Below, in pieces: positions 9,572-15,222 of a DNA stretch of 64,000 nucleotides (positions are counted from its first letter, which is position 1; every line of letters starts with the position of its first letter). The position numbers and the translations under genes were made by a program. Origin of the DNA: Mycetocola manganoxydans (GTDB lineage Bacteria; Actinomycetota; Actinomycetes; Actinomycetales; Microbacteriaceae); the NCBI RefSeq assembly GCF_003667545.1, contig NZ_RCUV01000012.1, forward strand, positions 1-64,000. The letters are read 5' to 3'. A model generated the notes under the pieces. It made no database searches and had not been told where the DNA came from. It was given only the letters and a program-made list of their open reading frames with translations.

Positions 9572-10723
9572 TCAGCTCGAGTACGCGCTGTTCTCATGCA
9601 CGTAGTCGTGCGTGAGGTCGTTGGTCATGATGGTGGCCGATTCGGTGCCCTCGTGAAGTTCGATGAGCACGTGGACGGCGCGACCGGTGAGGTCGACGAG
9701 GTCGCGTGACTGGTCGGGCGCTCCGGCGTGGCAGACGCGGACGCCGTTCATGCTCACGTCGACGGCGTACGGGTCGAACGGCGCTGTCGTGGTTCCGATC
9801 GCCGCGAGGACGCGTCCCCAGTTGGGATCGTTGCCGAAGACCGCCGCCTTGAAGAGGTTGTTCCGAGCGACCGAGCGCCCGACTTCGACGGCGTCATCTT
9901 CGGTCACGGCACCGACGACCTCGATGGTGATGTCGTGAGCAGCGCCCTCGGCATCCGCCTGGAGCTGGCGGGCGAGGTCGAGGCAGATCTCGCGGAGACC
10001 GTGGGCGAATTCGTCGGCGTCCGGTTCGACGCCGGATGCTCCGGAGGCGAGGATCGAGACCTGGTCGTTGGTCGACATACAGCCGTCAGAGTCGAGCCGG
10101 TCGAAGCTCACCCGCGTGGCGGCGCGAAGGGCGGTGTCGAGCTGGTCGGAGGCGACATCCGCGTCCGTTGTCAGGACGACGAGCATCGTTGCCAGGCCGG
10201 GAGCGAGCATCCCCGCCCCCTTCGCCATTCCGCCGATGACCCAGCCGTTCCCCTCGAACACCGCGGTCTTCGGGTGGCTGTCTGTGGTGAGGATGGCGTC
10301 TGCGGCGTCGGCGCCGCCGTCCGCGCTGAGTTCTGCGGCGACGGTGGCGACCCCCGGCAGGAGCTTGTCGCGGTCGAGCTGTTCTCCGATGAGCCCGGTG
10401 GAACAGACGAGCACGTCGCCGGCTGAGATGTCGAGCGCGGTGGCGACGGCTTCGGCGGTGGCGTGAGTGGTCTGGAATCCCTGCGTTCCGGTGAAACAGT
10501 TCGCGCCGCCGGAGTTCAGGACGATCGCGCTGACCGTTCCGTCGGCGATGACCTGCTTCGACCACAAAATCGGGTTGGCCAGCGCGCGGTTGCTCGTGAA
10601 GACCGCTGCGGATGCCGCTCCTGGTCCCCGGTTGACGACGAGTGCCAGGTCCTTGCCCCCGGATGCTTTGAGGCCGATGGCGATGCCGGCTGCTTCGAAA
10701 CCCTGTGCTGCTGTGACACTCAT
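9572..10723 (-). CDS. argJ: glutamate N-acetyltransferase / amino-acid acetyltransferase
   Basis: Transfers acetyl from N-acetylornithine to glutamate, closing the acetyl cycle. 383 residues. The precursor self-cleaves before the nucleophile, here Thr179 in [13 protein letters not shown]. The C-terminal [16 protein letters not shown] tail is typical. Whether it also uses acetyl-CoA (bifunctional form) cannot be judged from sequence. The start overlaps the argC stop as ATGA. Confidence 0.96.
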
Positions 10724-11763
10724 GGTGCGACTCCGTTCACCGGGAGACCGGTCGATTCCTCGATGCCGAGGGCGATGTTGGCGGATTGGATGGCAGCGCC
10801 TGCGGTGCCCTTGGCGAGGTTGTCGACGGCGGTGACGACGACGACGCGGCCGGCTGCTTCGTCGACGGCGAGTCCCATCAGCATGGTGTTGGCGCCGAGA
10901 ACATCGGCGGTGCGCGGGAACTCTCCTGCCGGCAGGAGCTGCACGAAGGTTTCGTCGCCGTAGGCGTTCTGCCAGGCCGCGCGGACGGCATCCGCACTCG
11001 TTCCAGGCACGATGCGCGCGGTGGAGGTTGCGAGGATGCCGCGGGACATCGGAACGAGGACGGGGGTGAACGAGATGCTCACGTCGGTTGCCCCTGCTCC
11101 GCGCAGTCCCTGGGCGATCTCGGGGATGTGCCGGTGGGTGCCGCCGACGGCGTAGGAGTTTGCTGAGCCGAGGATCTCGGCGGCGAGCAGGTTGGTCTTG
11201 AGTGCCTTGCCCGCACCGGACGGCCCGACGGCGAGGACGCTGACGATATCCGCTGCTTCGATCACTCCGGCTGCGATACCGGGCGCGAGTGAGAGGGCGA
11301 CGGTGCTCGCGTTACAGCCCGGCGCGGCGATGCGGCGGACCCCGGCGAGGTGCTTGCGCTGTTTCGAGCCTGCGACGAGCAGCTCGGGAACGCCGTACGC
11401 CCAGGCGCCGAAGTAGTCGCCGCCGTAGAAGGCGGCCCAGTCGGCCTCGCTCGTGAGCCGGTGGTCGGCACCGCAGTCGACGACGAGGGTGTTCTCGTCG
11501 AGCTGCGCCGTCACCTCCCCGGATTTGCCATGGGGCAGGGCAAGGAACACGACATCGTGACCGGAGAGGTTCTCGGGCGTCGTCTCGGTGAGGGTGAGGT
11601 GCGCGAGGGAGCGCAGGTGTGGCTGGACGGATGCCAGTGGCTGGCCCGCGGTGGAATGCGCGGTCACCGTGCGGATGTCGAACTGGGGGTGTGCCGCGAG
11701 TAACCGCAGCAACTCTCCCCCGGCGTAACCGGATGCACCGGCTACGGCTACAGAAAAGGACAT
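10720..11763 (-). CDS. argC: N-acetyl-gamma-glutamyl-phosphate reductase
   Basis: NADPH-dependent reductase and first gene of the argCJBDFGH operon. 347 residues. The Rossmann loop [12 protein letters not shown] is at residues 9-20, the catalytic Cys150 is in APGCNAST, and GTHRHIPEI is the substrate block. The ATG at 11763 has only a weak AAGG upstream. An arginine-rich leader ORF ends 84 nt before this start, and together they form a candidate attenuation system. Confidence 0.96.
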
Positions 11764-11847
11764 GGCTCTACCTTATTGAGAAACGATCGTGGGAGAGTTC
11801 GGCGGCGCCTGTCGGAGTCGTGCGGTGCACTCCTCGCCCGGCGTCGC

Positions 11848-11931
11848 CTATCGTCGCTCTGAGGTACGGCGTCGACGCAGGCTGCACGGGGTGACACCCT
11901 GTGCGAAAACGCTGCTGTCGGAAATGGCCAT
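11848..11931 (-). CDS. arginine-rich leader peptide (uORF) of the arg operon
   Basis: A 27-codon ORF too short for automatic calling. It opens ATG GCC ATT TCC GAC and ends at TAG 11850-11848. Six of the last nine codons are arginine: residues 19-22 are consecutive (CGT CGA CGC CGT) and residues 26-27 (CGA CGA) directly precede the stop. TACAGT lies 6 nt before the ATG, so the message is expected to be leaderless. A GC-rich stem follows the stop (GGAGT at 11833-11829 with ACTCC at 11818-11814). No intrinsic terminator U-tract was seen. The codon run and position point to arginine-dependent control of argC (inference). Confidence 0.7.
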   Translation of the reverse strand: MAISDSSVFAQGVTPCSLRRRRTSERR

Positions 11932-11937
11932 GAGTCG

Positions 11938-11968
11938 ACTGTAGCCGCACCGGAGCGGCATCCGCCAA
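11938..11968 (-). promoter_or_regulatory. promoter of arg leader and operon
   Basis: The -10 is TACAGT at 11943-11938, exactly 6 nt before the leader ATG. A -35-like TTGGCG lies at 11968-11963 with a 19-nt spacer. It sits directly after the helicase stop codon. No ArgR-type palindrome is visible in or near it. Confidence 0.55.
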
Positions 11969-11981
11969 TCGGCCCTCGAGT

Positions 11982-14504
11982 TCAGAGCCGGTTGACGCCC
12001 GTGACGGTGACGACGGCGAAGCCCTGTTCGTCGGATTCGGCGAGGTCGATCTCGGCGCTGATTCCCCAGTCGTGGTCTCCGGCCGGGTCGTCGAGAATCT
12101 GACGCGCGGTCCAGACCGGGCCGCTCTCGTCGAGGATCAGCAGCTTCGAACTCCGGGCGTCCGGCCCGGTGAGGACCTGGTCGTACTCCTCGAAGTAGCC
12201 GTCGAGCGAGTCGGCCCAGCGGTCAGCGTCGAAGCCGGATGCCGCGTCGAGCTCTCCGAGGGCGTCATAGTCTTCGAGGGCGGCGAGCTGAACCCGGCGG
12301 AACAATTCGTTGCGCACGAGGATGCGGAACGCGCGTGCATTGCCGGTGAGGCGTTTCGGTGCCGGCGGCACGATCGCCTCCGCCTGTGTGGCGTGCTTCG
12401 CGGCATCCGGGTGGCTGAGTTCCTCCCACTCGTCGAGGAGGCTCGAGTCGACCTGGCGGACGAGTTCGCCGAGCCACTCGATGAGGTCGAGGAGGTCTTC
12501 GGTCTTGGCGTCGTCCGGGATGGTTTGCCGGGCGGCCCGGTAGGCGTCGGAGAGGTAGCGGAGAACGACACCCTCGGAGCGGGCGAGTTTGTAGAAGGCG
12601 ATGAACTCGCCGAACGACATCGCGCGCTCGTACATGTCGCGCACGATCGACTTGGGGCTGAGCTCGAAGTCGCGGATCCACGGCTGGTGAGCGCTGTAGG
12701 TCTCGAAGGTGGCGGTGAGCAGTTCTTCGAGCGGTTTCGGGTGCGTGACCTGCTCGAGAAGTTCCATCCGCTGGTCGTATTCGATTCCCTCGGATTTCAT
12801 CGCCGCGACGGCTTCACCGCGGGCGAGGAACTGCTGCTGGCTGAGCACGGCGCGCGGATCGTCGAGCGTCGCTTCCACGATGGAGATCATGTCGAGGGCG
12901 TAGCCGGGGTCCTCCGGGTCGAGCAGCTCGAACGCGGCGAGCGCGAACGGCGACAGCGGCTGGTTGAGCGCGAAGTTGGGCTGCAGGTCGACGGTCAGGC
13001 GGATGGTCCCGTTTGCGGACTGTTCGACGATCCCCGACTCGCGAAGGGTCCGGTAGATCCCGAGGGCGCGGCGGGCGAGTTCGAGCTGACGTTTCCACGG
13101 TTCGTGGTTGTCGAAGATGAGGTCGTGGACGTGCCTGTACACGTCTCCCCCTCGCCCGATCACGTTGATGAGCATCGCGGAAGTGATCTGCATGCTCGAG
13201 GTCAACGTCTCCGGTTCCGCCGCGACGATGCGCTGGAAGGACGGCTCACCCCAGGAAACGAAGCCTTCCGGCGCCTTCTTGCGGATGATCTTGCGTTTCT
13301 TCTTCGGGTCGTCTCCGGCCTTCTTGATGGCGTTGAGGTTCTCGGTCTCGTGCTCGGGAGCCTGCACGACGACGGTTCCCGCTGTGTCGAAGCCGGCACG
13401 GCCGGCCCGCCCGGCGATCTGGTGGAACTCGCGCGCCTTGAGCTGGCGCATCCGGGTTCCGTCGTATTTGGTGAGCGCGGTGAACAGCACGGTGCGGATG
13501 GGCACGTTGATCCCGACGCCGAGCGTGTCCGTTCCGCAGATGACCCGCAGGTATCCGCGCTGCGCGAGTTGCTCGACGAGCCGCCGGTACTTCGGCAGCA
13601 TGCCGGCGTGGTGAACGCCGATTCCTGCACGGATCAGTCTCGACAGTGTCTTGCCGAAGCTTGTCGTGAAGCGGAATTCGCCGATCAGCTCGGCGATGAC
13701 ATCCCGCTGTTCCCGGGTGGCGACCTTCATGCTCGACATCGACTGCGCGCGTTCCATCGCAGCGGCCTGCGAGAAGTGCACGATGTAGACCGGCGCCTGC
13801 CCGGTGGTGAGCAACTCCTCGACCGTCTCGTGGATCGGCGTCGTCTCGTAGTAGAAGTGCAGCGGCACCGGGCGGTCGACACCCGTGACGAGGGCCGTCT
13901 CGCGCCCCGTGCGACGGGTGAGGTCTTCGGCGAGCGCCGTCACGTCGCCGAGGGTCGCCGACAGCAGGATGAACTGCACCCCCGGCAGGCTCAGGAGTGG
14001 AACCTGCCACGCCCAGCCACGCTCCGGGTCGGCGTAGAAGTGGAACTCGTCCATGACGACCTGGTCGACCTCGGTGTCTTCCCCGTTGCGCAGGGCGAGG
14101 TTCGCGAGGATCTCCGCTGTGCAGCAGATGATCGGGGCGTCGGCGTTGACCGACGAGTCCCCCGTCATCATGCCGACGTTCTCGGCGCCGAACACGTCGA
14201 CGAGCGCGAAGAACTTCTCGCTGACGAGCGCCTTGATCGGTGCGGTGTAGAAGCTGCGCTTTCCGGCGACCAGCGCGGCGAAGTGAGCGCCGATCGCGAC
14301 GAGGGACTTCCCGGTTCCCGTCGGAGTGCTGAGCACCAGATTCTGTCCAGACACGATCTCGATGATCGCCTCATCCTGTGCCGGATACAGACGGATGCCG
14401 GTGGCGTCGACCCACGCGGAGAACGCGTCGTAGACGGCATCCGCTTCGATCGAAGTGCCGAGGCTCGAGCGGAGGGCGTGCGGATCGAGCTTCGGTGGCG
14501 TCAT
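11982..14504 (-). CDS. DEAD/DEAH-box helicase, Ski2-like, with DUF3516-type C-terminus
   Basis: 840 residues. Walker A STPTGTGKS is at about 59-67 and DEFH at 152-155. LLSATLGD, HHAGMLPKYRR and the motif VI-like QIAGRAGR follow in order. The long alpha-rich C-terminal half matches the DUF3516 region of actinobacterial Ski2/HelY-like proteins (from memory). It is probably an ATP-driven RNA or DNA remodelling enzyme in the cytoplasm. The ATG at 14504 has GAAGGA two bases upstream; the open frame to 14693 overlaps pnuC and is rejected. There is no terminator before the arg promoter at its 3' end. Confidence 0.88.
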   Translation of the reverse strand: MTPPKLDPHALRSSLGTSIEADAVYDAFSAWVDATGIRLYPAQDEAIIEIVSGQNLVLSTPTGTGKSLVAIGAHFAALVAGKRSFYTAPIKALVSEKFFALVDVFGAENVGMMTGDSSVNADAPIICCTAEILANLALRNGEDTEVDQVVMDEFHFYADPERGWAWQVPLLSLPGVQFILLSATLGDVTALAEDLTRRTGRETALVTGVDRPVPLHFYYETTPIHETVEELLTTGQAPVYIVHFSQAAAMERAQSMSSMKVATREQRDVIAELIGEFRFTTSFGKTLSRLIRAGIGVHHAGMLPKYRRLVEQLAQRGYLRVICGTDTLGVGINVPIRTVLFTALTKYDGTRMRQLKAREFHQIAGRAGRAGFDTAGTVVVQAPEHETENLNAIKKAGDDPKKKRKIIRKKAPEGFVSWGEPSFQRIVAAEPETLTSSMQITSAMLINVIGRGGDVYRHVHDLIFDNHEPWKRQLELARRALGIYRTLRESGIVEQSANGTIRLTVDLQPNFALNQPLSPFALAAFELLDPEDPGYALDMISIVEATLDDPRAVLSQQQFLARGEAVAAMKSEGIEYDQRMELLEQVTHPKPLEELLTATFETYSAHQPWIRDFELSPKSIVRDMYERAMSFGEFIAFYKLARSEGVVLRYLSDAYRAARQTIPDDAKTEDLLDLIEWLGELVRQVDSSLLDEWEELSHPDAAKHATQAEAIVPPAPKRLTGNARAFRILVRNELFRRVQLAALEDYDALGELDAASGFDADRWADSLDGYFEEYDQVLTGPDARSSKLLILDESGPVWTARQILDDPAGDHDWGISAEIDLAESDEQGFAVVTVTGVNRL

Positions 14505-14532
14505 GGTCCTTCGATCATGCCACCCTCCCCGG

Positions 14533-15222
14533 TCACCGCTTGACGGTCGGGTCAGGGAACGCCGTCTCGATCGTGAGCGAGTTCTTCTTCTGCACCCGCA
14601 TCCAGATGAAGAAGCCGACGAGGGTGAACCCGCCGTAGAAGAGATACAGCAGAGCGGACGCGTAGTAGCCGGCGCTGACCAGCAGCGGAACACCGACGAT
14701 GTCGACAGCGATCCAGATCAGCCAGAACTCGACCCAGCCCTTGGCCATGCCGTAGGTGGCGAGGAGGGAGCCCATGAAAATCCAGGCGTCTGCCCACACC
14801 GGTTCGAACGAGCCCAGTGCCCGGAAGATCGGGATGAGGACGAGGGTTCCGCCGAACAGGCCGAGGATCAGGAAGAACCGGGCCTTGTTGGACGCCCAGT
14901 GCGGGGTCACCGCCGTGTGCTTCTCGGAGTTACGGCTCTGCCTCCACTGCACCCAGCCGTAGATCGAGACGATGATGAACATGACCTGGCGGCCCGCCTG
15001 GCCGAGGAGGTTCACCGGGTTGGGTGTCCCGAAGACAGCGCCGAGGAACACCGTGAACAGCATCACGTTGCCGATGATTCCGACCGGCCACGCCCACACC
15101 TTGCGGCGCATCCCGCCGACGGCGCTGGCCATGCCGAACGCGTTGCCCAGGATCTCCCGCCAGAGGATTGTCTGGTCGCCGATCACCAGTTGCGCGTCGA
15201 AGAGCCACTCGATCGGGTTCAT
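14533..15222 (-). CDS. pnuC: nicotinamide mononucleotide/nicotinamide riboside transporter PnuC
   Basis: 229 residues with about seven hydrophobic segments. Family blocks include LGNAFGMASAVGGM, WAWPVGIIGN, YGWVQW and the WLIWIAVDIVGVPLL stretch with the conserved W-x3-D. It takes up an NAD precursor across the membrane. The ATG at 15222 (MNPIEWLFD) is used because the longer frame would overlap the divergent promoter. The helicase gene starts 28 nt downstream on the same strand. I saw no NAD-type riboswitch. Confidence 0.9.
   Translation of the reverse strand: MNPIEWLFDAQLVIGDQTILWREILGNAFGMASAVGGMRRKVWAWPVGIIGNVMLFTVFLGAVFGTPNPVNLLGQAGRQVMFIIVSIYGWVQWRQSRNSEKHTAVTPHWASNKARFFLILGLFGGTLVLIPIFRALGSFEPVWADAWIFMGSLLATYGMAKGWVEFWLIWIAVDIVGVPLLVSAGYYASALLYLFYGGFTLVGFFIWMRVQKKNSLTIETAFPDPTVKR

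Follow-up and report, generated by a model that had tools for sequence, protein, structure and literature searches.

A putatively leaderless, arginine-rich leader ORF and a stop-proximal RNA hairpin upstream of argC: a probable ribosome-mediated arginine attenuator in Microbacteriaceae

The stretch of Mycetocola manganoxydans DNA analysed here (64 kb at its full length, hereafter the window) carries on its minus strand an arginine biosynthetic operon with the gene order argC, argJ, argB, argD, argF, argG, argH. Upstream of argC lies a short open reading frame rich in arginine codons, which the original prediction had described as a candidate arginine attenuator. Sequence and translation bore out its description of a 27-codon ORF at 11931-11848 on the minus strand, 6 nt past a TACAGT box. 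The codons also read as claimed, with four Arg codons at positions 19-22 (CGT CGA CGC CGT) and Arg-Arg at codons 26-27 (CGA CGA) followed at once by TAG. Likewise, the leader stop lies 84 nt upstream of the argC ATG at 11763, and argC is indeed the first gene of the arginine operon argCJBDFGH. Of the pairing partners proposed for the RNA downstream of the stop, GAGGAGT (11835-11829) and ACTCC (11818-11814) had been placed correctly, whereas AACTCTC lies at 11799-11793 and not at 11793-11787. The features of the locus, in the direction of transcription, are the following.

11965..11970, minus strand: conserved GATTnG block upstream of the leader promoter, -35-like, located by information content
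11938..11943, minus strand: TACAGT, putative -10 box of promoter P1, 6 nt before the leader ATG, assigned by sequence
11848..11931, minus strand: putatively leaderless leader ORF of 27 codons, translation MAISDSSVFAQGVTPCSLRRRRTSERR
11866..11877, minus strand: Arg run, leader codons 19-22
11854..11856, minus strand: invariant Arg codon CGA, two codons ahead of the TAG/anchor codon
11840..11848, minus strand: GGCGACGCC, 5' arm of the RNA element, its first base being the last one of the stop codon
11814..11835, minus strand: inner hairpin GAGGAGU...GACUCC of the window species, not conserved in sequence
11801..11809, minus strand: 3' arm GGCGCCGCC of the RNA element
11776..11800, minus strand: spacer between the 3' arm and the Shine-Dalgarno (SD) sequence, C-rich and G-poor on family average
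11770..11775, minus strand: UAAGGU, SD-like for P1 transcripts and possible -10 box (P2) of a leaderless argC transcript
10720..11763, minus strand: argC (TIGR01850, 331 bits, over the cut-off), first gene of argCJBDFGH, the operon extending down to 3830

The whole 64-kb window was scanned for ORFs of 12-60 codons with runs of a single residue, Ala and Gly runs being left out. The leader was the sole ORF that combined a TAnnnT box 5-7 nt before the start with at least five identical residues in ten. Intrinsic terminator-like sites were not found in the window, in keeping with the original description of the locus. An Rfam search of positions 11400-12300 up to E = 10 returned an irrelevant CRISPR repeat (E 4.3) as its sole match, and no T-box upstream of argC. 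The gene 5' of the leader (11982-14693, minus strand) matches models of ATP-dependent DNA helicases, all under their cut-offs; it is not pheT.

We located argC in 143 of 150 Microbacteriaceae genomes and read the upstream regions of all 143. The leader rule called for a TAnnnT box 5-7 nt before an ATG or GTG and an ORF of 14-60 codons with at least four Arg in 12 codons; ORFs containing RTL[TRK] were discarded from real and control sequences alike, which excludes pheT frames. An Arg-rich, putatively leaderless ORF passed this rule in 73/143 argC upstream regions. Of the controls, the reverse strands yielded 4/143, and 40 rounds of dinucleotide shuffling averaged 1.05, never exceeding 4. Leader and RNA element occurred together in 74 genomes from 42 genera, 72 of them by rule and two added by eye (G132 and G023, counted as leader-positive though their starts miss the rule). 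The leader-negative class comprised 65 genomes from 38 genera, and four genomes with leader-like remains and no element by rule (G017, G068, G082, G145) were assigned to neither class. With these four ambiguous genomes set aside, no genus was mixed among the 139 classified genomes. The leader was absent from Cryobacterium, Leucobacter and others (L037-L043, L045-L047, L066 and the leader-negative genomes of the main set). In two PHSC20C1-like genomes (L063, L108) the element match was weak and a leader-like ORF was poor in Arg codons (ending in VLRGADERR before the stop), perhaps a decaying leader.

Leader presence was also placed on a tree of ArgC, from which L055, L068 and L069 were omitted (failed motif). 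The distribution needs 10 changes, and the starred branches force at least 5. Three 'minus' labels on this tree are false, namely L184 (contig cut at argC), L022 (spacing of 8) and L016 (leader too far upstream for the rule). Because at least five changes are forced and these three labels are false, an early gain followed by leader losses is likely but unproved.

The distance from start codon to RNA element was in frame in 72/72 leaders, spread over 14 different lengths, and the leader rule sets promoter and Arg richness, not the frame relative to the element. In 36/36 within-genus pairs the distance differed by a multiple of three, and in 10 of these by more than zero. Arg reached 5.58 per 12 codons in the ORF frame, compared with 0.76 and 1.80 in the other two frames. 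Since Arg richness is confined to the ORF frame, base composition does not explain the leader, and judged by these comparisons the leader is not a chance occurrence. In 74/74 genomes, 72 of which a similar Arg criterion had selected, the 12 codons preceding the anchor codon include at least four Arg. Neither AGA nor AGG occurs among the 559 leader Arg codons. The codon two before the TAG/anchor codon was Arg in 42/42 genera and CGA in 41/42. Differing Arg codons in 29 within-genus pairs were synonymous in 23/46 cases (expected 0.37; p = 0.049), and single Arg positions swapped with Leu and others. The conserved feature is the Arg-rich stretch and not each codon, with the CGA two before the anchor as the exception. 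The conservation check across Microbacteriaceae that had been proposed along with the attenuator bore the proposal out: ORF, frame and Arg richness are strongly kept, although single Arg positions shift.

The RNA element consists of GGCGACGYC, starting from the third base of the stop codon, and a matching GRCGUCGCC, the whole spanning 39-66 nt; CGA and GGCG.C are among the invariant alignment columns. Helix pairs 1-4 and 6 were present in 74/74 genomes, pairs 1-3 and nearly pair 4 being fixed by construction through the anchor and 3'-arm rules. Pair 5 was intact in 49/74 and broken in 25/74, with A opposite C in 16 of these, the window included. The arms were complementary at 8-9 out of 9 positions in 64/74 genomes, versus 14% of letter shuffles. 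RNAalifold retained 6 pairs on the MAFFT alignment because some 3' arms were misaligned, and the arms were re-anchored by rule. Helix covariation was modest (p = 0.022; fixed 3'-arm rule, 41 genus representatives), and the p of 5e-5 obtained with best-pairing arms is biased.

The position of the leader stop was constrained as well. Relative to the first base of the 5' arm it lay at -2 in 40 and at +13 to +22 in 31 of 71 leaders. In the latter 31 run-on genomes (18 genera) TAG is changed and the new stop falls 13-22 nt beyond the arm's first base in all; the other two frames of these genomes stop that soon in 2/62. Given a footprint of ~16 nt upstream and 13 nt downstream, a terminating ribosome would therefore cover the 5' arm in 71/71 leaders. 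The switch that had originally been proposed, in which GAGGAGU pairs alternatively with ACUCC or AACUCUC, was rejected, as the inner loop is not conserved in a 60-sequence alignment; the RNA feature that is kept is GGCGACG:CGUCGCC starting at the stop codon. The family comparison yielded no conserved competing helix, and no U-tract was seen by eye in the 60 sequences of alignment A1.

A covariance model, R1, was trained on 60 of the 74 elements; its matches in those genomes or in the same strains are given by construction. Wherever the argC position was known, R1 matches with E below 1e-4 adjoined argC, the exception being G243, with the match at the end of another contig and argC at a contig start. 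In G265 and G266, two genomes of the window's genus with R1 matches, the argC position was not located. Weaker matches away from argC (best 3.3e-4) look like chance. R1 is incomplete, giving only 0.0101 for the leader-positive G018 and 0.00134 for G257 at argC. Outside the model set it hit G265, G266, G215, G229, G243 and G257, and also the pheT-ended loci L058, L069, L077, L092, L097, L102, L136 and L182, in which the element stands upstream of argC without an Arg leader. Among 38 named loci, some of them the same strains as in R1, a match at E up to 0.05 was found in 23/38, all ending at the argC start and including Mycetocola, Okibacterium, Leifsonia, Plantibacter, Diaminobutyricibacter, Salinibacterium, Rhodoglobus, Microbacterium and Frondihabitans; R1 did not match any of the 10 Cryobacterium loci or the Leucobacter locus in this set.

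Information content upstream of the leader, computed for 40 genus representatives, peaked at the GATTnG block, which lies 33-28 nt upstream of where the -10 hexamer ends. TAnnnT preceded the start codon by 6-7 nt in 72/72 leaders with a start call, the box itself being a search criterion with spacings of 5-7 nt allowed. The -35-like block is present at P1 and absent at P2 in both leader-positive and leader-negative classes. An SD-like motif was found at argC in 71/74 leader-positive genomes, as a leadered transcript needs; leader-negative argC had a TAnnnT box without SD in 41/65 genomes and an SD-like motif in 21. TAnnnT still preceded argC in 53/74 leader-positive genomes, and UAAGGU may therefore double as SD and -10 box. 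A second, unattenuated promoter may accordingly be encoded at argC. The spacing from UAAGGU to argC in the window, 6 nt, is the same as at the leader promoter and suits both an SD and a -10 box. The spacer between 3' arm and SD averaged 44% C and 21% G; leader-negative genomes have 34% of either base at this distance.

Repression by ArgR is the textbook mode of control for arginine biosynthesis. We detected neither ArgR_C (PF02863) nor the ArgR N-domain (PF01316) in any of the 150 Microbacteriaceae genomes, the window's own included, whereas ArgR_C was found in 110/111 other genomes of the order, the exception being a 0.8-Mb genome. The motif GTAT[AG][GT]T stood just before argC in 29/41 sister-family loci (23 with ATGC following), in a search range that misses some longer N-termini, and in 0/143 Microbacteriaceae regions. 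We take the sequence around these GTATAGT-like -10 boxes of sister-family argC to be the ARG box. The same argC operon would in sister families be under ArgR/ARG-box control, while Microbacteriaceae have no ArgR and no ARG-box-like core by these searches. Conversely, an Arg leader was found in 0/41 sister-family loci scanned, with start codons picked by rule and some perhaps off; the argC motif was not found at one sister-family locus, L212. The sister-family argC (L188-L229) mostly looks leaderless, with its -10 box (TATAGT) within ARG-box-like sequence. A second, divergent argC-like match (37% identity) lies at G253:C2:286534-287547, in a genome of another family. Neither leader nor detectable ArgR was present in 65 Microbacteriaceae genomes, six pheT-ended ones included. 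The suggestion that the leader stands in for ArgR fits the absence of both Pfam domains from all family genomes, and the best reading of the distribution is that the attenuator took over after ArgR loss.

In the six pheT-ended genomes, which belong to three genera (g4, g31, g35), the Arg leader is missing and the element is kept. Here the end of pheT lies 55-75 nt upstream of argC, and the 5' half of the element is made up of the final pheT codons, GAG CGA nnn GGG GCG, with CGA read in the same frame as in the leaders. R1, which had been built without pheT-ended genomes, detected all six (E 1.5e-11 to 3.9e-6) as well as both named Frondihabitans loci, possibly of the same genus as some of them. 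CGA was present in 6/6 of these pheT ends versus 6/36 other motif-bearing ones (p = 0.00018, ignoring relatedness within three genera), a comparison that left out 36 further pheT ends without the motif. The leader may have evolved from the end of a pheT gene, or else pheT may have taken its place. A bolder reading, which we regard as improbable, is that the core sensor would be the single invariant CGA 8 nt before the stop-proximal hairpin and not the whole Arg run. In some lineages the leader would then be replaced by the 3' end of pheT, which encodes an essential tRNA synthetase, and ribosomes finishing PheT would gate the arg operon. If true, the family would have exchanged a repressor for control by ribosomes and, in some cases, for control by the end of an adjacent gene.

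Together, these comparisons of sequence make it probable, with a chance of roughly four in five, that leader and hairpin belong to the class of ribosome-mediated arginine attenuators. The sensing half of such an attenuator is well supported by the sequence comparisons; we infer from them that arginyl-tRNA is what it reads, and likewise the output step and which way that step acts. Transcription from P1 would begin at or beside the leader ATG, and the Arg-rich leader would be translated during transcription of the arg operon. With ample arginyl-tRNA the ribosome would get to the stop and cover the 5' arm, so that the 3' arm and the C-rich spacer stay open. If arginyl-tRNA is scarce, the ribosome would pause in the Arg run, in most cases 13-22 nt ahead of the arm, and the hairpin would be free to form. 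The hairpin state would set argCJBDFGH expression, most likely by shielding the leader from Rho or RNases, and low arginine would lead to expression. We hold this detailed version (5' arm covered by a ribosome at the stop, hairpin freed by one at the Arg run, expression at low arginine) only tentatively, at slightly less than even odds.

Folding was scored for 67/72 leaders, with the ribosome placed in turn over the first Arg pair, over the CGA codon and on the stop. The mean helix probability of the outer hairpin in these 67 genomes was 0.56 with the ribosome at the first Arg pair and 0.65 without a ribosome, and with the ribosome at the CGA codon or stop the hairpin was excluded by construction. 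The leading edge of the stalled ribosome lay 13-22 nt short of the 5' arm in 54/67, 7-10 nt short in 8 and touching it in 5. Between the stalled and the stop state, SD accessibility changed by more than 0.1 in either direction with no consistent trend (11 up and 12 down of 67), and no partner that sequesters the SD was found to be conserved. Rho was detected in 20/20 genomes, 13 of them of Microbacteriaceae, and over the cut-off in 19. Because no terminator was found, the spacer is C-rich and Rho is detected, Rho-dependent attenuation or RNA decay would be the likeliest output.

Two versions of the attenuator assign the output differently. In translational attenuation the leader RNA would sequester the argC SD, and a ribosome stalled on Arg codons would release it. 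In the window species the SD AAGGUA is indeed predicted to be paired, at a probability of 0.77, to leader bases that lie 14-17 nt ahead of the element, codon-shuffled controls giving 0.12 and 0/20 of them reaching 0.77, and predicted pairing is high also in G108, G063 and G075. However, it is 0.00 in G149, of the same genus as the window species, and over 66 genomes (at most two per genus) pairing exceeded codon-shuffled controls in just 23/66 (p = 0.25). SD sequestration was consequently rejected as a family-wide mechanism, not being above controls over the 66 genomes, and we consider translational attenuation unlikely. Somewhat less unlikely, though still doubtful, is a version in which a ribosome waiting at the invariant CGA beside the stop would cover the 5' arm, this blocked state being the ON state; stalled ribosomes keep Rho off tnaC in a comparable way. 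That CGA is fixed at its place while other Arg codons vary, and that it persists in pheT-ended versions (6/6 vs 6/36 other motif-bearing pheT ends), speaks for this version, but it leaves the upstream Arg run unexplained, as a starved ribosome would halt there first, with the arm free.

The remaining explanations dispense with attenuation altogether. Were the ORF a coincidence, and the conservation due to an element that binds protein or acts as RNA unread by ribosomes, one could account for the invariance of CGA together with GGCG.C and for the survival of the element without the leader in 6 genomes. Against this, the frame is held in 72/72 leaders over 14 lengths with Arg richness limited to the ORF frame, the stop placement is constrained, the spacing of the arms varies over 39-66 nt, unlike an operator, and pheT-ended versions read CGA in the same frame; this explanation is very improbable. 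Even less credit is due to the idea that the ORF yields a small protein that is functional in itself. The ORF is conserved and has its own putative promoter, but leader length varies from 20 to 39 codons, N-terminal halves look unrelated by eye between many genera, and the parts that are kept are the Arg-rich tail and the RNA at the stop. Ribosome-mediated arginine attenuation remains the preferred reading.

The trpL and hisL leader peptides are the classical amino-acid attenuators. As in trp/his-type systems, the arg leader is an ORF rich in end-product codons between a promoter, assigned by sequence, and the first gene of the operon; unlike them, it was found to have no intrinsic terminator or U-tract. 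Leaders of trp and ilvB occur in Actinobacteria according to PMC1262725, and like these and trpL/hisL the arg leader places end-product codons ahead of a biosynthetic operon. The same source predicts cysteine leaders, and polycysteine leaderless sORFs precede mycobacterial cysteine operons (Canestrari et al. 2020, PMC8764745, as described in PMC9031893 and PMC13236596). Our leader resembles these polycysteine sORFs, as described there, in being putatively leaderless and actinobacterial, with a run of end-product codons near the stop and no conserved terminator hairpin reported. It differs in using arginine, not cysteine, in the conserved hairpin starting from the stop codon, and in operon and family.

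Nearest in function, along with these polycysteine sORFs and S. aureus rbfL, is the Salmonella speF leader, in which a pause at two Arg codons is reported to let a stop-adjacent hairpin form and a ribosome at the stop to prevent it (PMC6386406). Shared features are consecutive Arg codons and a hairpin directly past the stop, and for the arg leader, too, RNA alternatives set by ribosome pause or stop are predicted. The speF orf34 controls an ornithine decarboxylase gene and is an SD leader encoding a conserved DUF2618 peptide in a long 5' leader, with Rho and RNase G; the arg leader, in contrast, is putatively leaderless, precedes an arg biosynthetic operon and has no conserved peptide domain that we saw. 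The HIRRT core given for speF in PMC6386406 is not in the leader peptide of the window. Arginine is also sensed by S. aureus rbfL, a leader of 8 residues with two Arg codons (AGA, AGG), where arginine shortage lowers rbf translation through paused ribosomes covering the RBS (PMC13009471). There too arginine availability is read via the Arg codons of a uORF; rbfL differs in not lying at an arg operon. In a 2005 survey of Actinobacteria (PMC1262725), which had Leifsonia xyli in its genome list, arginine operons were reported to have no conserved RNA regulatory structures ahead of them. Within the open-licence literature, judged by title and abstract opening, we found no paper that describes a leader peptide sensing arginine, or rich in it, in front of bacterial genes for arginine biosynthesis.

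These findings point to a leader-peptide sensor at the arg operon in about half of the genomes examined, in a family without detectable ArgR. If this is true, arginine would be a further amino acid with leader-peptide attenuation of its biosynthetic operon, and the arg operon would offer a compact system in which to study how high-GC Gram-positives attenuate without an intrinsic terminator. Microbacteriaceae and their sister families would then present a clear swap of regulator type.
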